This document shows, in pieces, positions 21,447 through 37,177 of a stretch of DNA of 64,000 nt. Source of the stretch: Salmonirosea aquatica (lineage in GTDB: Bacteria > Bacteroidota > Bacteroidia > Cytophagales > Spirosomataceae); NCBI RefSeq assembly GCF_009296315.1, contig NZ_WHLY01000002.1, forward strand, positions 682,001 to 746,000, read 5' to 3'. A program made the position numbers and the translations under genes. Every line of letters starts with the position of its first letter. Positions within the stretch are counted from its first letter, which is position 1. A model generated the notes under the pieces. That model was not told the origin of the DNA. It saw only the letters and a program-made list of their open reading frames with translations, and did not search any database.

Positions 21447-22511
21447 TCAATTCCGCATTCTGAGCAATTTATCATAGTCCAGTATCGTGATAAGGCTACC
21501 CTTCATCTCCACCAGTTTCTCATCCTTAAAATCCGAAAGGGTACGGATGACCGTCTCGGTGGCAGTACCTACGATGGAAGCAATGTCTTCCCGGGTAATT
21601 GCCATGGAAAAAGGCTTGCCCCTATCAGCCTGATAGCGGTTGGACAGCATTACGAGTGCCTCGGCCACCCGCTTACGCACTGAATTATAGGCCAGCTGTA
21701 GCAAGCGTTCCTCACGCTCCTTGATTTCATTGGAGAGCATCCGGATAAACTTGGCTGACACCTCTCGGTTTCCCTGCAAAAGGCTGAAAAAATCCTCTTT
21801 CGGAATCACCGCCACCTCCGCTTCTTCCAGCGCCACGGCCGTATCCTGGTAGGGCTTATCCTGCAATATGTCTACGTATCCAAAAAAATCCCCTTTTTTG
21901 TACAAATCGGTGATAAACTCCTTGCCGAATTCATTGGCACGGTAGGCTTTGATTTTCCCGCTTAGCAGAAAAAATATACCCGTGGGGTAGCTGCCTTCGG
22001 TATAAACCGTATCCTTCTTTTTAAAGCTTTTGACTTTTTTTTCTTCGGCCAGTTTGCTGAGCGCATCTACGGTGCGGACTTCCTGAATAAACTGATCCAA
22101 TCCCTCACCAGTACGGCTGAACTCCGCCTTGAGACGTTCGCTTTTTTTCAGGCGCATTTCTACGGCTCCGAGCAGCTCTACATCGTCATAGGGCTTGGTC
22201 AGGTAGTCGTCGGCACCCATCGTCATGCCCTTGCGGTAATCATTTTTTTCAGCCTTGGCGGTCAGAAAAACGAAGGGAATGTTTGCGGTCCGGTCGTCCT
22301 TACTGAGCAAATGCAGCACCCCGTATCCGTCTAGTTCGGGCATCATGATGTCGCAGATAATCAAGTCTGGCTGTTGGTGATGTGCCAGCTTTATACCCTC
22401 CTTGCCATTGGTAGCGGTCGTAACTTCGTAGTTGGCCAGCTCCAGGATTTCGGCCGTGTTCTCCCGCATTTCGGGATTATCTTCGATCAATAGTATTTTT
22501 TTCGTACTCAT
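21447..22511 (-). CDS. Response regulator receiver fused to Crp/Fnr-type DNA-binding regulator
   Basis: 354 residues. An N-terminal receiver (1-120) has the phospho-acceptor D54 (CDIMMPELDGYG), T84 and K106. A linker helix leads to a cyclic-nucleotide-binding-like beta-roll (about 160-255; GSYPTGIFFLLSGKIKAYRA) and a Crp-type winged helix (about 275-354). The recognition helix TATETVIRTLSDF keeps the Glu (E319) and Arg (R323) used by Fnr and Crp to read TGA half-sites, and lacks the extra Arg of Crp that selects GTGA. No Fe-S cysteines are seen. It is encoded 14 nt after the PAS kinase, its obvious partner. In effect FixJ and FixK are one chain. The neighbourhood (hemN, cbb3) suggests it controls microaerobic genes. 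Confidence 0.9.
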   Translation of the reverse strand: MSTKKILLIEDNPEMRENTAEILELANYEVTTATNGKEGIKLAHHQQPDLIICDIMMPELDGYGVLHLLSKDDRTANIPFVFLTAKAEKNDYRKGMTMGADDYLTKPYDDVELLGAVEMRLKKSERLKAEFSRTGEGLDQFIQEVRTVDALSKLAEEKKVKSFKKKDTVYTEGSYPTGIFFLLSGKIKAYRANEFGKEFITDLYKKGDFFGYVDILQDKPYQDTAVALEEAEVAVIPKEDFFSLLQGNREVSAKFIRMLSNEIKEREERLLQLAYNSVRKRVAEALVMLSNRYQADRGKPFSMAITREDIASIVGTATETVIRTLSDFKDEKLVEMKGSLITILDYDKLLRMRN

Positions 22512-22525
22512 AGGGGTTGGTCGGG

Positions 22526-23782
22526 TTAGGCGGCGGATGGGGCGTAGTTGGGCAAATTGATGTAAAAGGTCGTTCCCTTACCGGTTTTGCTCGTAAACGA
22601 TATTTCCCCTTTCATCAAATCAAGATATTTTTTCACAATATTCAAACCCAGCCCGGTACCCTGTGCATTCCCGGCATTATGGGCGCGGAAAAAGCGCTCG
22701 AAGATATTGGTCTGATCGCTTTCGGGTATGCCGATGCCCTGATCCTGAATTTCTAAATGAACACCTGCCTCGTCCACCCGGGTACGGAGCCAGATATCGG
22801 TGTAGCTTTCGGAATACTTGATGGCATTGGAGAGCAGATTGATCAACACGTTGCGTATCAAATGTTTGTCGAGCCACGCCTCGGCAGCCCCCTCATGCTG
22901 GTAGAAAATTTGCTGTCCTTCCTTGCAGACGCCTTTGATTTCGTCCATGAGTTCGGAGCAGCAGGCAGGCAGATCCACTTCTACCGGAACACTATGCATC
23001 CGCCCCTCTTCCAGCTTACCCACAGAGAGGAAATCGTTCAGGATTTCGGTCAGGTTGTTCACCGCCGATTTGATGCGGTGCACGTGCTTCTGGCGTTTTT
23101 CGTCCTCTTCGGTATGCACGTACCGTCCAATCAGCGAGGCCGACGACAGAATCGTAGCCAGCGGCGTGCGGAACTCGTGTGAGGCAATGGTCACGAACTT
23201 GCTTTTCATGTCGTTCAGTTCGCGCTCTTTCTCCAAAGCCCGTATGACCTCCTGCTGCGAGGTTTCGAGCTTTAATAGCGTTTCGGCCAGCTCCTGCGTG
23301 CGTTGCGTTACGCGCATTTCGAGTTCGGTATTGAGTTTCTGAATTTCTTCATTGGCGGCCCGAAGATCATTCTCCTGCCGCTTGCGGTCTGTGATATCCA
23401 CGACGAAGGCCACCACGAAATCGCCCTCACTGGTAGCAAACGGGCTGAGACTCACTTCCACTGGGAATTCGGTACCATCGCTACGGCGGGCAAACAAATC
23501 GCGATTATGACCCATGCCCCGCGCCTGCGGGGCACCCATATAGCCCATCCGTAAACTGGCGTGGCTGCGGGCATACCGGATTGGCACCAAAAGCTCTATT
23601 TTATTGCCGATCAACTCTTCCTCATCATACCCAAAAAGTTGCTTCGCAGTCGGGTTCATCATGGCAATTACCCCCTGGCCATCCACCACAACGATCCCCT
23701 CCGTAGCGTGTATGAACAGCGCGTTGAGCATTTCAATATGCCGCTTCATTTGTTCCGTATGTTTGATATACAATTCTAACAT
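22526..23782 (-). CDS. PAS-domain histidine kinase, FixL-like
   Basis: 418 residues from the ATG at 23782; the upstream in-frame extension is unlike coding sequence. One PAS domain spans about 16-135, followed by a coiled coil (about 135-190), the HisKA box with phospho-acceptor H202 (IASHEFRTPLATIL) and an ATPase domain with N-box (LLSNAIKYS), DQGIGIP and GTGLGLNIVKKY. There are no membrane helices, so it is cytoplasmic. In the PAS domain H74 and R94 fall at the same spacing as the haem ligand His200 and the ligand-sensing Arg220 of Bradyrhizobium FixL. A large non-haem PAS group also shares this general pattern. It is co-transcribed with the receiver-Crp regulator and lies just downstream of hemN. 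Confidence 0.9.
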   Translation of the reverse strand: MLELYIKHTEQMKRHIEMLNALFIHATEGIVVVDGQGVIAMMNPTAKQLFGYDEEELIGNKIELLVPIRYARSHASLRMGYMGAPQARGMGHNRDLFARRSDGTEFPVEVSLSPFATSEGDFVVAFVVDITDRKRQENDLRAANEEIQKLNTELEMRVTQRTQELAETLLKLETSQQEVIRALEKERELNDMKSKFVTIASHEFRTPLATILSSASLIGRYVHTEEDEKRQKHVHRIKSAVNNLTEILNDFLSVGKLEEGRMHSVPVEVDLPACCSELMDEIKGVCKEGQQIFYQHEGAAEAWLDKHLIRNVLINLLSNAIKYSESYTDIWLRTRVDEAGVHLEIQDQGIGIPESDQTNIFERFFRAHNAGNAQGTGLGLNIVKKYLDLMKGEISFTSKTGKGTTFYINLPNYAPSAA

Positions 23783-23943: not shown

Positions 23944-25308
23944 TCATACAGTCTGACTGAACAGATTTGTCTGGGGTGCGTTTTCCCAAAGCCGGGCGTC
24001 GAAGGCCATGCACACGTTCCGGACGAACGAGCGGCCTTTTTCAGTAATGCGCAAATGGTAGGGCTCGATTTCCACCAGTCCGTCAGCTTCCATTTCTTCC
24101 AGACGATTCAGGCCTTCGTATAACGCCTTGCATTTCTCCGATTCCTGACGCCAGGTAGTTTCAAAGTTGCACATCAGGCGCTGGATGTGACGGCTCAGGA
24201 TGAGGTCTTCGCGCGACGATACATGGCCCCGGAAGAAGGGCAACTCGTCGTTAGACAGCCGCTTGTAATATGCCTCCACACCCTTTTCGTTCTGGGCGTA
24301 GCCCCACCATGCATCGCTGATGGCCGACGCACCCAGACCGATGAGCAGCGAGGTCTGGGTATCGGTATAGCCCATAAAATTGCGGTGCAGTCGCTTTTCG
24401 GCGGCGGCTCGGTACAGGCCGTCGGTTTTGAGGGCGAAATGATCCATGCCCAGATCCTGATACCCCGCCAGTTCCAGCGCGTTGCGGCAGGTTTCGTAAA
24501 TCGCCAGTTTTTTTGTCGAATCGGGCAGGTCCTCTTCCGTGAAGCGGCGCTGCCCAGGTTTGATCCAGGGTACATGGGCGTAGCTGTAAAACGCAATGCG
24601 GTCGGGCCGGAGCTGGATTACCTTGAAAATCGTCTGGATCATGGAGCACACCTTCTGCTGCGGTAGCCCGTACACCACATCGTAATTGACCGAAGTATAA
24701 CCAATTTCCCGCGCTTTTTCGGTCAGGTGCTTTACCTGATCGTAAGTTTGATGACGGTTGATGATTTCGAGCACGACGGGGTTAAAATCCTGCACACCGA
24801 TGCTGACACGCCGGAAGCCGACTTCGTAGAGTGCCTGCAAATGTTCGTCGGTGGTATTGCCGGGATGCGCCTCAAAGCTGAATTCGGCCTGCGCGTGCAC
24901 TTCGCAGCCTTCAAGGAGCCGGGTGATCATTTCATGAAGATTTTCCGGACTAAAAAAGGTAGGGGTACCCCCGCCCAGATGCAGCTCGCGGATGATGGGT
25001 TTTTCAGCTCCCAGCACTTTCTTGTATAACTCCCATTCTTTCAGCACCGCTTCCAGGTAGGGGCGCTCGACTTTATGGTTGACGGTGATACGGGTGTTAC
25101 AGCCGCAGTAGGTACACAGGCTTTCGCAGAAAGGCAAATGTACATATAGGCTAATACCCTGCTTTTGATTCGTGACCGAGAACGTATCATTCACCAGTTC
25201 ACCCCAACGTTCGGGTGAAGGCGGGGTACCTTGCCAGTAGGGTACGGTCGGGTAGCTGGTGTAGCGCGGGCCGGGCACGTTGTATTTTTGCAGGAGTTCG
25301 TGGTTCAT
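23944..25308 (-). CDS. hemN: Oxygen-independent coproporphyrinogen III oxidase
   Basis: 454 residues. The radical-SAM cluster motif CxxxCxxC is present (C61, C65, C68 in FCESLCTYCGCN), followed by a GGGTPTFFSPENL motif and the HemN C-terminal domain (FRGHVSSREDLILSRHIQRL). It decarboxylates coproporphyrinogen III to protoporphyrinogen IX without oxygen, using SAM, for haem synthesis at low oxygen. The length and N-terminal YNVPGPRYTSYPTVPYW are those of true HemN and not of HemW. It has its own promoter with a TGAC-N4-GTCA site about 90 bases upstream, and sits between the cbb3 oxidase operon and the PAS kinase genes. Confidence 0.95.
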   Translation of the reverse strand: MNHELLQKYNVPGPRYTSYPTVPYWQGTPPSPERWGELVNDTFSVTNQKQGISLYVHLPFCESLCTYCGCNTRITVNHKVERPYLEAVLKEWELYKKVLGAEKPIIRELHLGGGTPTFFSPENLHEMITRLLEGCEVHAQAEFSFEAHPGNTTDEHLQALYEVGFRRVSIGVQDFNPVVLEIINRHQTYDQVKHLTEKAREIGYTSVNYDVVYGLPQQKVCSMIQTIFKVIQLRPDRIAFYSYAHVPWIKPGQRRFTEEDLPDSTKKLAIYETCRNALELAGYQDLGMDHFALKTDGLYRAAAEKRLHRNFMGYTDTQTSLLIGLGASAISDAWWGYAQNEKGVEAYYKRLSNDELPFFRGHVSSREDLILSRHIQRLMCNFETTWRQESEKCKALYEGLNRLEEMEADGLVEIEPYHLRITEKGRSFVRNVCMAFDARLWENAPQTNLFSQTV

Positions 25309-25361: not shown

Positions 25362-25404
25362 CAAAACTACGGGGAGTTTTAGCCTCTGAACATGACAACG
25401 GTCA
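25362..25404 (-). promoter_or_regulatory. hemN promoter: TGAC-N4-GTCA operator plus TAGTTTTG -7 element
   Basis: On the minus strand the perfect inverted repeat TGACCGTTGTCA (25393-25404) is followed by TAGTTTTG (25362-25369), which fits the Bacteroidota -7 consensus TAnnTTTG. The TA of the -7 box is the 30th base after the centre of the repeat, so the site would be centred near -42, the class II activator position. The -33 region here is poor, as expected for an activator-dependent promoter. The hemN start is 53 bases further on. The elements are read directly; the protein that binds is inferred. Confidence 0.65.
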
Positions 25405-25505
25405 GAAATGGGAATGACTTTGAGAGTAACCTCATTGGGGCAAGCTCTCCCTCTTAGTCCGGAAGGCGAAAAACCTTGTCCCGTACCCGAACATTGAGGT
25501 ATTTT

Positions 25506-26304: not shown

Positions 26305-26751
26305 TCACTTCACCACCACTACGCCTTCGTTCCAGTAGGCGGTTTCACCATTTTTCCAATCGAATTGAAGGAGATAGCGGCCCGGCTGAACACTTTGCAA
26401 GAGAACAGTCTGCTTGTTGGCAGAACCTGGATGTACCGAAAATTCGGCATCTTTCTTGTTATCCGAAGGACAGTAAAAATGAATACTACCGGCCAGGTCT
26501 TGCCCCGTCAATTCGGTAGGATACTGCACTTCAAGGGCTCCGTCCAACACCTGCCAGCGCAAGGGTGTTGGCAGGGTTTTGGCGCGGTTTATCTTTTCAA
26601 TTTTCTTCTGAAATGCCAGTTCCTGGGCATAATAATCTTCCGTAACCAGGTCTACGCGCTGGTTCATGCTCATGGTGACGAGCGTCAGGATTCCGGCCAC
26701 GAAGCCGATGTAGAGCAAGGCGATTCTCGTGCCCCAATTGATCTTTTTCAT
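26305..26751 (-). CDS. ccoH: FixH/CcoH family cbb3 oxidase assembly protein
   Basis: 148 residues with one N-terminal membrane helix (IALLYIGFVAGILTLVTMSM) directly followed by QRVDLVTEDYYAQELAFQKK, the hallmark of FixH. The rest forms a periplasmic beta-sandwich (LEVQYPTELTGQDLAGSIHF, then PGRYLLQFDWKNGETAYW). CcoH is needed for stable assembly of cbb3 oxidase and contacts CcoN and CcoI. It is placed between ccoG and the SafE-like gene in the same direction, consistent with the usual order. Confidence 0.92.
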   Translation of the reverse strand: MKKINWGTRIALLYIGFVAGILTLVTMSMNQRVDLVTEDYYAQELAFQKKIEKINRAKTLPTPLRWQVLDGALEVQYPTELTGQDLAGSIHFYCPSDNKKDAEFSVHPGSANKQTVLLQSVQPGRYLLQFDWKNGETAYWNEGVVVVK

Positions 26752-26857
26752 CTTTTCTGCTTTAAGCTGTAAGTTGCGGGTTCTTGCTGAGTGGGTACTA
26801 ATATCTTAGAGTATTATGCGCCATAAAAGCCTATCGCATGCGGCTTTCGGCATTTTT

Positions 26858-28258
26858 CTACTGTGGGGCAATGAAGGTGGTTTTAAATTCTTCCATTTTT
26901 TTATCGCCCTGGTACACCGAAAACTTCACATCCGTCTTGCGCTTATTCAACTCAGATTTGGGTAATGTCACGAACAAAGTACCTTCCGACATACCTACCG
27001 GATCGAGCGCAAGATCAGGTTTTCCTGCAAAGCGCAGGGTACCCTGGGGCGATTCGAGTTTCAGCGTGGGGGCAATAGGGTGATTGGTTTTGTTAAAAAT
27101 TTTGAACGTGTACAGGTTGCTCACCGTGCCGTCGGAATTTTCGATGTAGGTAGTACCGGGAGCGCGGAAAAGTGTTGTTTCGGTATCGGTGCGGGTAGCC
27201 ACCATGAAGCCTAACACGCCCCACAGCAGCGCCAGTACCACCGAATAGCCAATTACCCGGGGTGTAATAAGCCGATTGGTACCATCGGCGATGGAATTTT
27301 CGGAAGCATAACGAATCAGGCCGCGCGGGAAACCTACCTTGTCCATCATGTGGTCGCAGGCGTCGATGCAGGCCGTACAGTTGATACATTCCATCTGGGT
27401 ACCGTTCCGGATGTCGATGCCCGTGGGGCACACCACCACGCATTGCTGGCAGGAAATGCAATCGCCGGCGTTGCGGTCCTGACCTTTGTGGAGTTTTTCG
27501 CGGGGCTCGCCGCGCTTGTAGTCGTAGGCCACCACCATCGAGTTGCGGTCAAGCAGTACGCCCTGCAAGCGGCCGTAGGGACAAATCACCGTACAGACCT
27601 GGTCGCGCGCCCAAGCGAACACAAAGTAGAAAACTGCCGTGAAACCCACCACGCCGCCAAACAGCGACCAATGTTCGGAGAGTGGCTCGGTTATGATTTT
27701 TTTCAATTCATCCACCCCCACGACGTAGGATAGCAGCAGGTTGGCAATCACGAACGAGATCAATAAGAAAATACTCCATTTGCTGACTTTCTTAGCGATC
27801 TTATCCGTCGTCCACGGAGCTTTGTCCAATACTTTTTGCTGAGTGTGGGTACCTTCGATGGCGTACTCGATCTTGCGAAAAACCATTTCCATAAAAATGG
27901 TCTGCGGGCAGGCCCAGCCGCAGAACAGCCGCCCGTACACCACGGTAAACAGCACGATGAACACCATAAATGACATCATAGCCAGGCCGAAAAGCCAGTA
28001 GTCTTGCGGCCCGATGAACAGGCCGAAGATGATGATTTTCCGCTCAATGACATTGAATAAAAACAGCGGTTGGCCATCGACTTTGAGGAAAGGTCCGGCA
28101 AACAAGAGGGTCAGGGCCACGGCGGAAAACCAGGCCCGGCGGTTGTGCCAGAAGCCGCTGGGTTTCTGGGGGTAAAACCAATTCCGCTTACCTTCTTCGT
28201 TGACCGCGCTATAATGGTCGCGGAACGAGTCGTCGTAAATTTCGTACGTGGATTTCAT
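26858..28258 (-). CDS. ccoG: cbb3 oxidase accessory protein CcoG (RdxA/FixG), polyferredoxin
   Basis: 466 residues from the ATG at 28258; an earlier in-frame start at 28339 would overlap the gap and adds a sequence unlike the family. Several membrane helices in the first half hold a cysteine pair in GRLFCGWACPQTIFMEMVFR. A two-cluster ferredoxin domain follows (DCISCQQCVVVCPTGIDIRN and ECINCTACIDACDHMM), and a C-terminal periplasmic Ig-like domain (FixG_C) ends in a region with ALDPVGMSEGTLFVTLPKSE. CcoG is linked to copper reduction during cbb3 assembly. It is 113 bases downstream of ccoQP and 106 bases upstream of ccoH. Confidence 0.95.
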   Translation of the reverse strand: MKSTYEIYDDSFRDHYSAVNEEGKRNWFYPQKPSGFWHNRRAWFSAVALTLLFAGPFLKVDGQPLFLFNVIERKIIIFGLFIGPQDYWLFGLAMMSFMVFIVLFTVVYGRLFCGWACPQTIFMEMVFRKIEYAIEGTHTQQKVLDKAPWTTDKIAKKVSKWSIFLLISFVIANLLLSYVVGVDELKKIITEPLSEHWSLFGGVVGFTAVFYFVFAWARDQVCTVICPYGRLQGVLLDRNSMVVAYDYKRGEPREKLHKGQDRNAGDCISCQQCVVVCPTGIDIRNGTQMECINCTACIDACDHMMDKVGFPRGLIRYASENSIADGTNRLITPRVIGYSVVLALLWGVLGFMVATRTDTETTLFRAPGTTYIENSDGTVSNLYTFKIFNKTNHPIAPTLKLESPQGTLRFAGKPDLALDPVGMSEGTLFVTLPKSELNKRKTDVKFSVYQGDKKMEEFKTTFIAPQ

Positions 28259-28371
28259 GCTGTAGGCTCCGCTATCGGCCAGAAGCCTTTTCGTTTTGAA
28301 ATGATAATCAACTCTACATGACTGGCCTGCTGCTTTCAACCCATTGCCTCGAGTATCTTAGGGCCAAAAGC

Positions 28372-29442
28372 TTATTGTTGTTTGGCTACTTCAAGGGCTT
28401 GGGGCACCGGATTGGTGGGTACGTCGGCAGGCGTTTCGTACAATTCTCCCTGCGGTGCTTTGGGAGCCATGGGTTTGTTGCCATGTAACTCGGCTAGGAT
28501 GAAGCTGGCCACTTTCTGCATTTCCTGGGGCGGGAGTTGCTTTTCCCACGAAATCATGCCCTTTTCAGGTACCCCGTACTTAATCACCTTGAACACATCT
28601 TTGATATCGCCACCATGAAGCCAATAGTCATCGGTCAGGTTGGGACCTACCCCACCTCCACCGTCAGCCGCGTGGCAGGCGGTGCATTTTTCCGTAAAAA
28701 TCACGCCCCCTTCCTTGATGAGCGCTCCTTCGGTGAGCAGCGTCACATTCTCTTCATTAATACCCGCGCCCATTTTCTCAATATAGGCCTTCTTCTGCAC
28801 CTCGGCCATAGCCAGTTCTTTGTTCAACTCTTCCATCTGTAAATCACCAAAACCAAAGGCATGATAGTACAGACCGTACGTTATGGCGAAGAGCACCGTA
28901 CCCACAAACATGAACTGCAGCCAGGGCGGCATCCGGTTGTCGAGCTCGTGAATGCCGTCGTATTCGTGGCCCGCCAGCAGGATCTTTTCTTCCTTACTCA
29001 ACGGTGTGGAAAAACCTACGAACTTGCGCCACCAGCCGGGACTGAACAGAGGGGTAGATTCGGCTTGTACCTCGGCGGGTAGCGCTTTGGTGGTGATTTT
29101 CTGATACAATACGATTACCTGTACCAGTACGACCAGCAGCACAAGGATCATACAGACCAACAGAAACATCACGACATAAAGAAGGAAATCGGAATAGGAG
29201 GTAGGTACCTCGGTGCCCTGGGCGAAAGCCGATGGGACAACTAGCAGGGCCAAAATGGTCAAAAGGGTCTTTTTAATTACACTGTCGTCCAGTGGAACCG
29301 CTTTCATTGCGTCCACTTCCTGACGGCCCATGCGGAGGACGTACCACAGCAGCCCAACGAAAAAGGCCACGAATATCACCAGCGAGATCAGCGGGTAAAT
29401 GCTGACGCCCGCAATGGTTTCGAGATAGTTCTTGAATTTCAT
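28372..29442 (-). CDS. ccoP: Fused CcoQ-CcoP subunit of cbb3 cytochrome oxidase
   Basis: 356 residues from the ATG at 29442. Residues 1-50 look like a complete CcoQ (YLETIAGVSIYPLISLVIFV, then LLWYVLRMG). Without a stop the frame runs into VIKKTLLTILALLVVPSAFA at 55-74, which looks like the signal peptide of a separate CcoP, followed by the CcoP N-terminal helices (about 84-115 and 172-195). A single c-type haem motif occurs (C253-T-A-C256-H257), with M296 as a likely axial ligand. Proteobacterial CcoP has two haems; one is usual for this phylum. It passes electrons to the catalytic subunit at the cytoplasmic membrane. Confidence 0.9.
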   Translation of the reverse strand: MKFKNYLETIAGVSIYPLISLVIFVAFFVGLLWYVLRMGRQEVDAMKAVPLDDSVIKKTLLTILALLVVPSAFAQGTEVPTSYSDFLLYVVMFLLVCMILVLLVVLVQVIVLYQKITTKALPAEVQAESTPLFSPGWWRKFVGFSTPLSKEEKILLAGHEYDGIHELDNRMPPWLQFMFVGTVLFAITYGLYYHAFGFGDLQMEELNKELAMAEVQKKAYIEKMGAGINEENVTLLTEGALIKEGGVIFTEKCTACHAADGGGGVGPNLTDDYWLHGGDIKDVFKVIKYGVPEKGMISWEKQLPPQEMQKVASFILAELHGNKPMAPKAPQGELYETPADVPTNPVPQALEVAKQQ

Positions 29443-29540
29443 ATGCTTGGATGTTGGATCGGTCCGCCGAAGCGGCTGGATTTTGGGTACTGGATGCCCA
29501 TGCTTCGCTAGGGCACCCAATACCCTGTCTCCGTTATCGA

Positions 29541-31715
29541 TTAGTTTAGGTTTGCTACATTTCCATTATTGCCCTTGATGTCGGTACCCAGGCGTTGCAG
29601 GTAGGCGATGAGTGCCACGATTTCGCGGTCGGACTGCGTCTCGATGCCGCTTTGCTTGAGGCGGCCCTTAATCTGGTCGGCCTGCTTCATCAGGTCGCGG
29701 TTAGCGATTTGGTCGTAGCCTTCCTCATAGGGTACCCCCAGGGTCTGCATGGCGCGGATTTTGGCCGCCGTAGTAGCCGTATCGAGCGGCGCGTCCAACA
29801 GGAACGAATAGGGCGGCATGAGCGAGCCGGGCGACATCGAGCGCGGATCTTCCATATGGTTGTAGTGCCAGGAGTCGGGGTACTTTTGTCCTACTCGGTG
29901 CAAGTCGGGGCCCGTACGCTTGGAACCCCACTGGAAGGGATGATCGTAGACGAATTCCCCGGCTTTGGAATACTCGCCGTAGCGTTCGATCTCGGCCCGG
30001 AATGGGCGCACCATCTGCGAATGGCACACATAGCAGCCTTCCCGTACGTAGATGTCACGGCCCTGCAATTCGAGCGGCGTATAGGGCTTCACGCTGGCAA
30101 TGGTAGGTACGTTGGACTCGACCATGAAGGTAGGTACGAGCTCGATGACGCCCCCAATAGCCACGGCGATCAACGCGCAAACGGTAAGCAGTACCGGCTT
30201 CCGCTCTACCGTGCGGCTATGCCAGTATTCACCTTTACTGGGCTTCCAGGACGACGCGACGGAGGGTACCCTTGCAGTTTCAGTTTCGACCAGCGTGCCG
30301 TTTTTGGCAGTCATCAACAGGTTGTAAATCATCACTGCGAAGCCCACCAGATACAGTACCCCGCCGATTCCACGCAGGATATAAAGGGGTACCAGTTGGA
30401 TCACTGTTTCGAGAAAATTGGGGTACTTCAACAACCCTTCTTCGGTAAACTGCATCCACATGGAGCTTTGCGTCCAGCCCGCCCAGTACATCGGCACGGC
30501 GTAGAAGATGATACCCAGGGTACCGATCCAGAAGTGGAAATTGGCTAGTTTCTGCGAATGCAGCGGCGTAGCATAGATACGCGGAATGAGCCAGTACAGG
30601 ATACCAAAGGTCAGGAAGCCATTCCAGCCCAGCGCTCCCACGTGCACGTGGGCGACGGTCCAGTCGGTGAAGTGGCTAATGGCGTTCACACTTTTGAGTG
30701 ACAGCATCGGCCCCTCGAAAGTCGCCATGCCGTAGGCCGTCAGGGCTACCACCATGAATTTGAGCACCACATCCTCGCGCACTTTATCCCAGGCTCCACG
30801 AAGCGTAAAGAGGCCGTTGATCATTCCACCCCAGGAAGGCGCGATCAGCATGATCGAAAACACTACGCCCAGGGTTTGGGCCCAGTCGGGCAGGGCATTG
30901 TAGAGCAGGTGGTGCGGCCCCGCCCAGATGTACAGGAAGATCAGCGCCCAGAAGTGCACGATCGACAGGCGGTAGGAATAGATGGGACGGTTAGCAGCCT
31001 TGGGTAAGAAGTAGTACATCAGACCCAGATAGGGGGTAGTCAGGAAGAACGCCACGGCATTGTGGCCATACCACCACTGCACCAGCGCATCCTGCACCCC
31101 GGCGTATACCGAGTAGCTCTTGAACAACGAAATGGGTAGCGCCAGACTATTCACGACGTGCAACATGGCCACCGTGATGAAGGAGGCAATGTAGAACCAG
31201 ATGGCCGCGTAGATATGCTCGGACCGGCGGTTGACCATCGTCATGAGCAGATTGATCATGGCTGCCACCCACACTACTGCAATGGCGATGTCGATGGGCC
31301 ATTCCAGTTCGGCGTATTCCTTGGAAGTGGTCAAACCCATGGGTAGGGTAATGGCAGCCGCCAGAATGATGGCTTGCCAGCCCCAGAAATTGAAGTAACT
31401 CAATTTTTTGCTCCACATCGGTGCTTTGAGGATGCGGGGCGCCGAGTAGTACATACCCGTGAAGAAACCATTGCCCACAAAGGCGAAAATCACCGCGTTG
31501 GTGTGCAGCGGGCGCAGCCGTCCGAAAGTCGTGTACGACAGTTCGAAGTTGAGGAAGGGGTAGGCAAGCTGAAAAGCAATCAGCACCCCGACCAGGATGC
31601 CAATCAGGCCGTACAATACGGTGGCAATGGCAAAGTTCCGGACGATTTTGTTGTCGTACTGAAATTCGTCCATCACAACCGGAGGGTGAGCATCGATAGC
31701 TATAGTTGAACTCAT
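29541..31715 (-). CDS. ccoN: Fused CcoN-CcoO catalytic and monohaem subunits of cbb3 cytochrome oxidase
   Basis: 724 residues. Residues 1-480 are the 12-helix CcoN, with haem and CuB histidines in RPLHTNAVIFAFVGNGFF, WWYGHNAVAFFLTTPYLG, PHHLLYNALPDWAQ and VHVGALGWNGFLTFG. Residues about 500-724 are CcoO, with one membrane helix (VLLTVCALIAVAIGGVIEL) and a c-haem motif at about 561-565 (EGCYVCHSQMVRPF). The fusion of the two is a known Bacteroidota form. The enzyme reduces oxygen to water with high affinity and pumps protons, supporting growth at low oxygen. It lies 26 bases after ccoS and 98 bases before ccoQP in one transcription unit. Confidence 0.97.
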   Translation of the reverse strand: MSSTIAIDAHPPVVMDEFQYDNKIVRNFAIATVLYGLIGILVGVLIAFQLAYPFLNFELSYTTFGRLRPLHTNAVIFAFVGNGFFTGMYYSAPRILKAPMWSKKLSYFNFWGWQAIILAAAITLPMGLTTSKEYAELEWPIDIAIAVVWVAAMINLLMTMVNRRSEHIYAAIWFYIASFITVAMLHVVNSLALPISLFKSYSVYAGVQDALVQWWYGHNAVAFFLTTPYLGLMYYFLPKAANRPIYSYRLSIVHFWALIFLYIWAGPHHLLYNALPDWAQTLGVVFSIMLIAPSWGGMINGLFTLRGAWDKVREDVVLKFMVVALTAYGMATFEGPMLSLKSVNAISHFTDWTVAHVHVGALGWNGFLTFGILYWLIPRIYATPLHSQKLANFHFWIGTLGIIFYAVPMYWAGWTQSSMWMQFTEEGLLKYPNFLETVIQLVPLYILRGIGGVLYLVGFAVMIYNLLMTAKNGTLVETETARVPSVASSWKPSKGEYWHSRTVERKPVLLTVCALIAVAIGGVIELVPTFMVESNVPTIASVKPYTPLELQGRDIYVREGCYVCHSQMVRPFRAEIERYGEYSKAGEFVYDHPFQWGSKRTGPDLHRVGQKYPDSWHYNHMEDPRSMSPGSLMPPYSFLLDAPLDTATTAAKIRAMQTLGVPYEEGYDQIANRDLMKQADQIKGRLKQSGIETQSDREIVALIAYLQRLGTDIKGNNGNVANLN

Positions 31716-31741: not shown

Positions 31742-31930
31742 TTATTTGCTGGCTGTCTGGGGTGTCGATTTGTCAGAAGGAAGCGGGTTGATGGTATCGT
31801 CGAACAGGATGCGGACGGAGGGTGTGTAGTCGTCATCGAACTGTCCGCCCCGCACCGACCACACAAAGGCTCCCAGGAATCCCAAGGCAGCCAACAGGCT
31901 GAAACCGATCAGGATAATTAGTGCGCTCAT
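31742..31930 (-). CDS. ccoS: cbb3-type oxidase maturation protein CcoS
   Basis: 62 residues with one N-terminal membrane helix (LIILIGFSLLAALGFLGAFV) then WSVRGGQFDDDYTPSVRILF, the compact CcoS signature. CcoS is needed to insert haem b and CuB into CcoN. It is the first gene of the oxidase operon, 26 bases before ccoNO. Its upstream region carries two perfect TGAC-N4-GTCA sites and a TAGTTTTG -7 element. Confidence 0.95.
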   Translation of the reverse strand: MSALIILIGFSLLAALGFLGAFVWSVRGGQFDDDYTPSVRILFDDTINPLPSDKSTPQTASK

Positions 31931-31948: not shown

Positions 31949-31960
31949 TGACTTGGGTCA
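31949..31960 (-). promoter_or_regulatory. TGAC-N4-GTCA site between promoter and ccoS start
   Basis: A perfect inverted repeat (TGACTTGGGTCA on the plus strand) lies 18 bases before the ccoS ATG. It is downstream of the TAGTTTTG box, near +28 if that box is used, so it may mediate repression or belong to a second promoter. Confidence 0.55.
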
Positions 31961-31988: not shown

Positions 31989-32054
31989 CAAAACTACCAT
32001 CAGGCTCACCGCTGAACGATGAGGTAGGTCAAGGTCGGGAAATGACATTGGTCA
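31989..32054 (-). promoter_or_regulatory. cco operon promoter: TAGTTTTG with tandem operator copies
   Basis: On the minus strand TAGTTTTG (31989-31996) is identical to the hemN -7 box. A one-mismatch copy of the repeat, TGACCTACCTCA (32020-32031), is centred so that TA is the 30th base after the centre, exactly as at hemN. A perfect copy, TGACCAATGTCA (32043-32054), is centred 23 bases further upstream, about two helical turns. This looks like an activator promoter with a proximal weak and a distal strong site. Confidence 0.6.
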
Positions 32055-34610: not shown

Positions 34611-37079
34611 TTACTTTACCCGCAACCATCGGCGCGCCGAATAGTTAGTGGCGGCGGTTGTAAAAAGCACGATGAAGATAGAACTAATAGGCATAAGAAT
34701 GGCTGACACTGCGGGCGACAATTGCCCCGTAATCGCGAACGAAACACCCACTAAATTATAGAGCAACGAAATGCCAAAACTGGTTTTTATAATGCGCTGT
34801 CCGGACTGCGCCAGCCGGATGTACCTGGGCAGTAAGGGTAGCTTTTCGCCCTGTAAAAGTACATCGCAGGCGGGCGAGAAGTTGTTAATGTCGTCCGAAA
34901 CGGCCAGCCCTACGTCGCTTTGTTGTAAGGCTCCGGCATCGTTGAGGCCGTCGCCCACCATGAGTACGTTCCGGTTTTGAGTTTGTTGAAGCTTCTTGAT
35001 AAAATCGAGCTTTTGCTCTGGTTTTTGCTGAAAAAGCAGGTGAGAATTATCCCCGAAAAGTTCGCCCAGAAACTGCGGATCGGTGGGCTGATCGCCCGAT
35101 AACAGGTAGGTATCGTAGTTTTCGGCCTGCAGGGTAGCTACCGTAGCGGCCAGGCCGGGCCGGTAGCGCGGACGAATCGCAAAGTACCCCCTGATATTGC
35201 CGTCGACTGCTACGTAAACGTGCGGATTTTGGGGAGGGGTACCTTCGCCGAATTCAGATGGAATTCCTGTCCCCTCACCTACCCAACGGAACGAACCCAG
35301 ACGTACCGATTGCCGCCCCCACTCAGCCCGGATGCCTGCCCCTTCCTGCTCGTAGAATTGGGTGAACGCTTTTTTGCTCGTAGGTACCTCCGGTAATGCT
35401 TTCACTAGCAAGCGGCTCAATGGATGTGACGATTGGGTAGCCAGGGTTTTGAACATACTCTGCTCTTTGGCAGTCAAAGGTACCCCCACAAACTCCACCT
35501 CCGCTTCACTGGGGAGCGTTATCGTTCCTGTTTTGTCAAATACGACCGTATCGGTCCTGGAAAGGCGTTCGAGAGCGTGGGCATTTTTGAGATAAAAGCC
35601 GTGCTTGCCGAACAGGCTCAGCAGGTTACCATTGGTGAAAGTAGCCGAAAGCAACAGGGCACACGGACAAGCTACCAGCAGGACCGTCGTAAACGCATTG
35701 AAGGCGGTTTCCCACTGCCCTGCTACCGACCATACCACAAACGTGACCGCCGCCAGCGCTAATACGACAACCGAGAAATAACGGTTGATGCGTGCGGCCA
35801 GCGTTTGGTTCTGATCTTCTTTTTCTTTGGTAAAGGCATCATTGTTCCAGAGTTGTGTCAGGTAGCTTTGGGAGACGCGCCGCACGATTTCCAGCTCTAT
35901 AGCCGGACCGCACTGCCGTCCCCCGGCGTAGAGGATATCTCCCTTTTTCCGTTTCACCGGTTCCGCTTCACCCGATACGAAACTGTAATCAATAAGCGTC
36001 GCGGGGCTTGCCAACGTGGCATCCGCCGGAATCAGTTCGCGGTTGCGTACCCTAATGCGGTCGCCGGGCCGCAGATCCTGTACGGGTAGCCGCGTTTCGA
36101 CGCCGTCGTTTACGACCGCGACGGCTATGGGGAAGTAGGATTTGTAATCGCGATCGAAGGCGATACTGGCGTAGGTTTTATCCTGAAAGTACCTTCCCAA
36201 TAGCATGAAGAACACGGCTCCGGCTAACGAATCGAAGTACCCCGATCCACTTTGCGTAATGACCTGGTAGATACTCGTCAGAAAAACACTCAGCAGTGCG
36301 AGGGCAATGGGCGCGTCGATGTTGAGGTACCTTCCCCGCAGGGCTTTCCCGGCCGACACAAAAAATTCGGAAGCACTGTAAAAAAACACCGGTACGGCCA
36401 AGGCTACATTCAGCGTGGTAAACAAGCCGCGCAATTGCTGGTCTTCGGTACTTTGCCCAAGGTTGAAATACTCGGGCAGGCTCAGCATCATGATATTGCC
36501 AAAGGCAAAACCCGCAATGCCGATCTTGTACAGACGCGTACGGTTCCATTTGGGAGGCCGCTTGTTTTCTACATCATTCAGACTGATGTAAGGCTCATAA
36601 CCGACCCGCGCCATGAGTTCAGCCAGTTGGCTGAGTCTTATTTGGGCAGGGTCAAAGGTAATACGAACGGTCTTTTCGGGAAAGTTGACAACCGAACTCC
36701 TGACGCCCGGATGCAAACGGTGCAACTGCTCCAGCAGCCAGATGCACGAACTGCAGTGCATTTTGGGTACCAGCCAATTGACCCGCTCCTGCCGCCCATC
36801 GGTAAATTCCAGTAATTTGGTGCGCATGTCGTCCAGGTCCAGATGGGCGAACTTACCCTGGTAGAAATCCACGTCAGGCGAGTTGCCCTTTCCATCCGTG
36901 AAGCGGTAGTACTGGCACAGGTCATTCTCCTTGAGCAGGTCATAGACCGTCTGGCAGCCTTCACAACAGAAATCGTGGTGATCGTGGCTGATTGGCTCAT
37001 CGCGACAGCGTTCGCCGCAGTGGTAGCAAAGGGTAGGTTCGGCGGTAGGTACCTGTGTATTGGGTTCGTTCTTTCCCAT
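34611..37079 (-). CDS. ccoI: Copper-transporting P-type ATPase CcoI (FixI)
   Basis: 822 residues. The N-terminus carries a Cys/His-rich metal region (CYHCGERCRDEPISHDHHDF, CCEGCQTVYDLLKENDLCQY), then a heavy-metal-associated domain with M-H-C109-S-S-C112. Eight membrane helices include the transport motif CPCALLLS. The cytoplasmic ATPase parts have DKTGT (phospho-Asp), SHPLSRLLV (the nucleotide-binding His-Pro) and MVGDGLNDAGAL. CcoI supplies copper for CuB of the cbb3 oxidase. It is normally adjacent to ccoS, but here two unrelated genes lie between, so it needs its own promoter; a variant operator lies 87-98 bases upstream. Confidence 0.95.
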   Translation of the reverse strand: MGKNEPNTQVPTAEPTLCYHCGERCRDEPISHDHHDFCCEGCQTVYDLLKENDLCQYYRFTDGKGNSPDVDFYQGKFAHLDLDDMRTKLLEFTDGRQERVNWLVPKMHCSSCIWLLEQLHRLHPGVRSSVVNFPEKTVRITFDPAQIRLSQLAELMARVGYEPYISLNDVENKRPPKWNRTRLYKIGIAGFAFGNIMMLSLPEYFNLGQSTEDQQLRGLFTTLNVALAVPVFFYSASEFFVSAGKALRGRYLNIDAPIALALLSVFLTSIYQVITQSGSGYFDSLAGAVFFMLLGRYFQDKTYASIAFDRDYKSYFPIAVAVVNDGVETRLPVQDLRPGDRIRVRNRELIPADATLASPATLIDYSFVSGEAEPVKRKKGDILYAGGRQCGPAIELEIVRRVSQSYLTQLWNNDAFTKEKEDQNQTLAARINRYFSVVVLALAAVTFVVWSVAGQWETAFNAFTTVLLVACPCALLLSATFTNGNLLSLFGKHGFYLKNAHALERLSRTDTVVFDKTGTITLPSEAEVEFVGVPLTAKEQSMFKTLATQSSHPLSRLLVKALPEVPTSKKAFTQFYEQEGAGIRAEWGRQSVRLGSFRWVGEGTGIPSEFGEGTPPQNPHVYVAVDGNIRGYFAIRPRYRPGLAATVATLQAENYDTYLLSGDQPTDPQFLGELFGDNSHLLFQQKPEQKLDFIKKLQQTQNRNVLMVGDGLNDAGALQQSDVGLAVSDDINNFSPACDVLLQGEKLPLLPRYIRLAQSGQRIIKTSFGISLLYNLVGVSFAITGQLSPAVSAILMPISSIFIVLFTTAATNYSARRWLRVK

Positions 37080-37165
37080 GAAAGTGTAGCGCTGGGGTAC
37101 TTTACAAACCCCAAAATTCGCTCCACAATTTTCCTAAAAAGATGACGTACCCTTCTTGAAAAACA

Positions 37166-37177
37166 TGACTTTGATCA
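37166..37177 (-). promoter_or_regulatory. Variant operator upstream of ccoI
   Basis: On the plus strand TGACTTTGATCA differs from TGAC-N4-GTCA at one base (ATCA for GTCA) and shares the AACA left flank of the hemN site. Its centre is 92 bases before the ccoI ATG, almost the same as at hemN (90). No good TAnnTTTG box lies at the same spacing (TCTTTTTA is found there), so this is weaker evidence. Confidence 0.4.

Follow-up and report, generated by a model that had tools for sequence, protein, structure and literature searches.

We found that hemN of Salmonirosea aquatica is probably preceded by a class II activator site with its centre at -41.5, and on sequence grounds we propose that the PAS histidine kinase and the receiver-Crp/Fnr fusion (REC-Crp) encoded beside hemN form a low-oxygen switch acting through it. 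As read from the sequence, hemN, the cbb3 oxidase operon and the gene for its copper pump have one common promoter design, and all three lie within the window (i.e., the whole 64,000-nucleotide stretch that we analysed). We infer that the switch would involve oxygen and heme sensing, binding of the site by REC-Crp, and activation rather than repression.

An operator at a fixed distance from the hemN -7 box

The hemN gene (23944..25308, minus strand, start at 25308) encodes an oxygen-independent coproporphyrinogen III oxidase that matches the TIGR00538 equivalog with 431 bits against a cut-off of 325. Upstream of it, a sequence-only reading of this DNA had picked out a perfect TGAC-N4-GTCA repeat on the minus strand with the TA of a -7 box as the 30th base past the repeat centre. 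Both are in place: the operator is TGACCGTTGTCA (25393..25404, minus strand), and the T of the -7 box TAGTTTTG (25362..25369, minus strand) is the 30th base counted from the centre of that repeat. Mapped promoters of Flavobacterium psychrophilum place TAnnTTTG at -12 to -5 (PMC9723704), so base 30 corresponds to a centre at -41.5 (class II), in agreement with the position near -42 given earlier, and base 53 corresponds to -64.5. In the same species, the cbb3 oxidase and heme synthesis are raised under oxygen limitation (PMC9723704).

With the operator as anchor, we aligned the sequences upstream of hemN from close relatives (23 regions). TGAY-N4-RTCA was present in all 23, with the N4 varying freely, which corrects the operator consensus at hemN from TGAC-N4-GTCA to TGAY-N4-RTCA. 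In 16 representatives, TGA and TCA at the outer ends did not vary, base 4 was C or T (G or A on the mirror side), and the four central bases carried little information. The next conserved stretch after the operator was T.TTTT, which lies on the -33 region, followed by about 17 mostly free bases and then a box of the form T/x-A-n-TTTTG; the information in the footprint was concentrated mainly at TGAY, RTCA, T.TTTT and the -7 box. In 17 of the 23 regions, TAnnTTTG began at base 30 exactly. Five Runella carried [GC]ATTTTTG at the same position, a weaker -7 box, and in Rhabdobacter the box was displaced by one base. The distance from operator to start codon varied from 57 to 107 bases, indicating that the spacing that is kept is the one from operator to box, not to the gene. 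Conservation upstream of hemN, on which the sequence-only reading had staked its case, was therefore found in several genera, where operator and box stand before hemN at fixed spacing (Arundinibacter, Persicitalea, Rhabdobacter, Telluribacter, Dyadobacter, Runella and others). The genera nearest to the window also showed a weaker half-site, (A)A(A/G)TCA, 22 bp upstream of the hemN operator. In the window this is AAAGTCA (25415..25421, minus strand; weaker footprint columns -16 to -11), which may be a second contact of the hemN operator.

Tandem sites at the cbb3 oxidase and copper pump promoters

The cbb3 oxidase operon begins with ccoS (FixS; 31742..31930, minus strand; PF03597) and continues with ccoNO, ccoP, ccoG and ccoH (26305..31715, minus strand; COX1/FixO, FixP_N, FixG_C and FixH Pfam domains). 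Its -7 box is again TAGTTTTG (31989..31996, minus strand), and two sites precede it: a perfect operator, TGACCAATGTCA (32043..32054, minus strand), 53 bases before the box (about -64.5), and an imperfect one, TGACCTACCTCA (32020..32031, minus strand), at base 30 (-41.5). Each of the 16 other Spirosomaceae cco loci that we read had a full TGAY-N4-GTCA at 52/53 bases from TA(G/C)TTTTG, and the TCA at base 30 was kept in the same 16. Across 59 genomes, matches of the 52/53 spacing class had TCA at base 30 in 11 of 16 cases, where chance would give 1/64 each.

The same layout was found at ccoI (fixI), which encodes a copper-type P-ATPase (34611..37079, minus strand; PF00122, PF12156 and PF00403). 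The first operator, TGATCAAAGTCA (37166..37177, minus strand), is 53 bases before the -7 box GAATTTTG (37112..37119, minus strand), and a downstream half-site (..GTCA; 37143..37154, minus strand) is at base 30. This operator had been overlooked earlier because the site reads TGAT. The tandem plan was present in 9/9 relatives read; all but Chitinophaga (i.e., eight) had the 53/30 spacing with CA.TTTTG, which is the form of the ccoI -7 box in the Spirosomaceae relatives read. In Chitinophaga, the sites at both 52 and 30 were full ones, and the box was TATTTTTG.

Genome-wide spacing of operator and box

In 59 Cytophagales genomes, the composite pattern TGAY-N4-RTCA-N23-TAnnTTTG had 165 matches, compared with 5 for the reversed pattern, and it was present in 121 of 149 Bacteroidia genomes. 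The window's own genome contains 90 copies of TGAC-N4-GTCA and 39 of the reversed pattern. We counted spacing histograms from the matches listed by the pattern searches. For TGAC-N4-GTCA with gaps of 8 to 38, 40 of the 147 matches listed fell at one of the 31 operator-to-box spacings, gap 23 (base 30); the gaps neighbouring 23 had 9 and 11 of the listed matches, and most others had 0 to 5. In the range of 39 to 67, 16 of the 75 matches listed had a gap of 45 or 46 (bases 52 and 53). A dyad centre at about -41.5 (with the flavobacterial mapped promoters as ruler) and a fixed spacing between operator and -7 box are the marks of class II Crp/Fnr sites, and both were found here.

A separate observation from the same counts is that gap 12 (box start at base 19) had 10 listed TGAC-N4-GTCA matches, more than the 0 to 5 that are usual for a gap; these are possibly repressor positions or chance.

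A candidate regulator pair beside hemN

Two genes downstream of hemN encode candidate regulators. The first is a soluble, FixL-like PAS histidine kinase (22526..23782, minus strand; PAS and kinase domains), whose start at 23782 is backed by orthologs (the listed open reading frame extends to 23893). The second is the receiver-Crp/Fnr fusion, the proposed activator (21447..22511, minus strand; 354 residues; Response_reg, cNMP_binding and HTH_Crp_2), in which PF00027 and PF13545, the domains of FixK and other Crp/Fnr proteins, score above cut-off. The gene order hemN-kinase-REC-Crp was kept in 19/19 close relatives, and the pair also adjoins hemN in two more distant family members (G026 and G033). 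In the window, the gap between hemN and the kinase start is about 160 bases, which makes a separate kinase promoter possible.

The best PDB matches of the kinase PAS domain were FixL chains (4.5e-14), and the proximal heme-ligand His of FixL aligned to a His that is invariant in 19 kinase orthologs. The distal Arg of FixL (R220 of B. japonicum) was not conserved in these orthologs: the window protein and only a few relatives have R, and most have other residues. The AlphaFold model of the kinase (mean pLDDT 72, pTM 0.43) was of low confidence around the PAS heme His, and structural comparison matched kinase cores only, so the likeness to FixL rests on sequence. By analogy with FixL, the kinase probably binds heme and senses oxygen.

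The receiver of REC-Crp is intact and retains its acidic pocket, with D11, D54 (the phospho-acceptor), T84 and K106 invariant. The E and R of the CRP/FNR recognition helix read TGA. The recognition helix of REC-Crp, TATETVIRTLSDF, is invariant in the window's clade and keeps both residues. The proposal of a Crp/Fnr-type activator made in the sequence-only reading thus gains from the hemN conservation, from the base-30 optimum and from these FNR-like recognition residues in a Crp-type regulator two genes downstream. An FNR-type Fe-S sensor was rejected as the binder because REC-Crp lacks the Fe-S cysteine set; its single Cys, C53, is in the receiver, and the NCBIfam FNR model gave 102 bits against a cut-off of 228. 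The AlphaFold model of REC-Crp (mean pLDDT 76, pTM 0.40) added little. We also noted another receiver-Crp protein, which shares about 50% identity with that of the window and is encoded on a 214 kb contig (C1:128825-129823; L135) near several copies of TGAC-N4-GTCA.

The operator could instead be a class II activator site bound by a stand-alone FNR-like Crp protein rather than by the fusion, which we consider unlikely. A stand-alone Crp is encoded beside the cco genes of Flavobacterium, Chitinophaga and others, which use the same spacing, so the architecture is no proof of REC-Crp, and the window's own genome encodes another typical Crp (L136, helix SREVVSR). However, hemN always has the REC-Crp gene as a neighbour in the window's clade (19/19), the L136 helix differs, and a similarly sized Crp of genome G014 (C3:36168) lies beside that genome's sulfur gene, not hemN. 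Among the genome's cNMP-binding proteins read (all those found except the large L229), the TATE(T/S).IR helix was found only in REC-Crp and its C1 paralog. Position, helix and elimination thus point to REC-Crp as the putative binder of the hemN operator.

A repressor site is a much poorer prospect, and we regard it as very improbable. The operator abuts the T.TTTT tract in the -33 region, where a Crp-type or other dimer could block polymerase until oxygen falls. A repressor, however, would tolerate many positions, whereas the sharp optimum at a single spacing fits activation, as does the tandem -64.5/-41.5 design. A weak -7 box, such as those at ccoI and in Runella, is expected of activator-dependent promoters.

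Perfect repeats across the window

The window contains six perfect copies of TGAC-N4-GTCA, starting at 25393, 26676, 31232, 31949, 32043 and 57465. The earlier estimate that the eight fixed bases occur about once per 65 kb by chance was fair, as dinucleotide shuffles of the window averaged 0.54 perfect copies, and six were never reached. That a chance palindrome came to stand beside a chance -7 box at hemN is next to impossible: this origin could draw on that background rate and on half of the perfect copies being intragenic, but it is ruled out by the hemN footprint, in which operator and box are conserved across genera while centre and flanks are free, and by the excess of composite matches over the reversed pattern.

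The three copies within genes (26676 in FixH, 31232 in ccoN, and 57465) were rejected as operators because they are coding; the ccoN copy recurs at the same codons in Persicitalea, which marks it as coding sequence. The sequence-only reading had counted three perfect copies in only two intergenic regions. This is literally correct, but the third (31949..31960, minus strand), which sits between the cco -7 box and ccoS, downstream of the box, is not conserved, and the total for the window is six. With no counterpart at that place in relatives, the 31949 copy was rejected as an operator and is probably due to chance or species-specific.

A proposed oxygen switch and its relation to known systems

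In the mechanism that we propose, falling oxygen would start phosphorylation through the heme-PAS kinase, and the phosphorylated REC-Crp dimer would bind TGAC-N4-GTCA beside RNA polymerase. Bound at -41.5, the dimer would turn on hemN (heme without oxygen), while the tandem sites at -64.5/-41.5 would turn on ccoS-NOP (the high-affinity oxidase) and ccoI (the copper pump). The two regulator genes adjoin hemN, run in the same direction and are perhaps in one operon with it, so that the loop would be self-reinforcing. With modest confidence, we suggest that the whole amounts to a one-protein FixJ-FixK, in which a heme-PAS kinase would signal through a receiver to a Crp activator that works at -41.5 alone, or as tandem dimers at -64.5/-41.5, on the Bacteroidota sigma-A promoter with a positive hemN loop.

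This arrangement resembles the rhizobial FixL-FixJ-FixK cascade of fixNOQP and hemN in having a relative of the heme-PAS kinase, a receiver, a Crp/Fnr-type output, and the cbb3 oxidase and hemN as targets. By sequence alignment, the kinase has a PAS domain with the proximal His that marks the heme-binding PAS of FixL; the receiver has the Asp of FixJ, but its output is Crp-type, not LuxR/NarL-type. Unlike in the rhizobial cascade, receiver and Crp domain here share one polypeptide, which does away with the transcription step from FixJ to FixK; moreover, the half-site is TGAC/TGAT without the outer T, and the promoter is of the Bacteroidota -7/-33 type. In the hFixL-FxkR-FixK system of Rhizobium (PMC7888657), an oxygen kinase likewise feeds a FixK-type activator of fixNOQP, but FxkR and FixK are separate, with a transcription step between them. 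Class II activation by E. coli FNR shares the Crp-fold dimer, the TGAT/TGAC core with N4 and the centre at -41.5; here, by contrast, there is no Fe-S cysteine set, and the signal would come from the kinase. HcpR of deltaproteobacteria and cyanobacteria binds the site TTGACnnnnGTCAA, which has the same TGAC-N4-GTCA core (PMC1274295). HcpR is, however, a stand-alone protein that regulates hcp/norB, whereas in our sites the outer T is not conserved and position -1 is mostly C or A.

The TGAC-N4-GTCA core (HcpR), class II activation (CRP and FNR) and the FixL-FixJ-FixK logic (rhizobia) are thus already known. What is new is the exact architecture on a Bacteroidota promoter, together with the predicted fused FixJ-FixK reader and, at cco and ccoI, the tandem plan of a full site plus a half-site. 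Our literature search, mostly outside subscription journals, found no FNR-type operator or oxygen-responsive activator for cco/hemN in Bacteroidota. The analysis provides an exact operator and spacing, a candidate sensor-regulator pair and a list of targets. The Bacteroidota sigma factor reads an unusual promoter, and Crp/Fnr-type activation on a -7/-33 promoter becomes testable, as does a fused FixJ-FixK as a shortening of the classic cascade. If our proposal is true, a one-protein FixJ-FixK would act as a main oxygen switch in Spirosomaceae, and Bacteroidia in general would use the -41.5 design.

Further targets and related sites

In the window's clade, the composite also precedes ccoNO and genes for ScdA/RIC, a bacterial globin, universal stress proteins (at three loci), fumarase, a DUF983 protein and a hydroxyacid dehydrogenase. 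This set of targets suits low oxygen.

A second group of sites, which have a longer form, TGAC(A)AATGTCACTGA, or near variants of it at the same -7 spacing, was found before sulfur genes, namely those for metallo-beta-lactamase-rhodanese proteins, rhodaneses, a TauE exporter (variants), thioredoxin and DUF2892-like proteins. The stand-alone Crp of G014 is in the sulfur-gene region of that genome, and the group is probably a separate sulfide/persulfide regulon of another Crp protein. In the window's own genome, such sites are at C2:1422068, C2:2685451, C1:144551 and C1:100082 (L142, L146).

Identical sites recur about 201.8 kb apart near the ends of C1 (C1:5789/C1:207588, C1:11484/C1:213275 and C1:8076/C1:209876), which suggests that the ends overlap and that C1 is a circular replicon of about 202 kb. 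Finally, in L048 and L050 (Bacteriovoracaceae; 9942), a perfect TGACACAGGTCA, identical in both of these Bdellovibrionota genomes, lies about 53 bases before a hemN match, and a similar activator site may therefore exist outside Bacteroidota.
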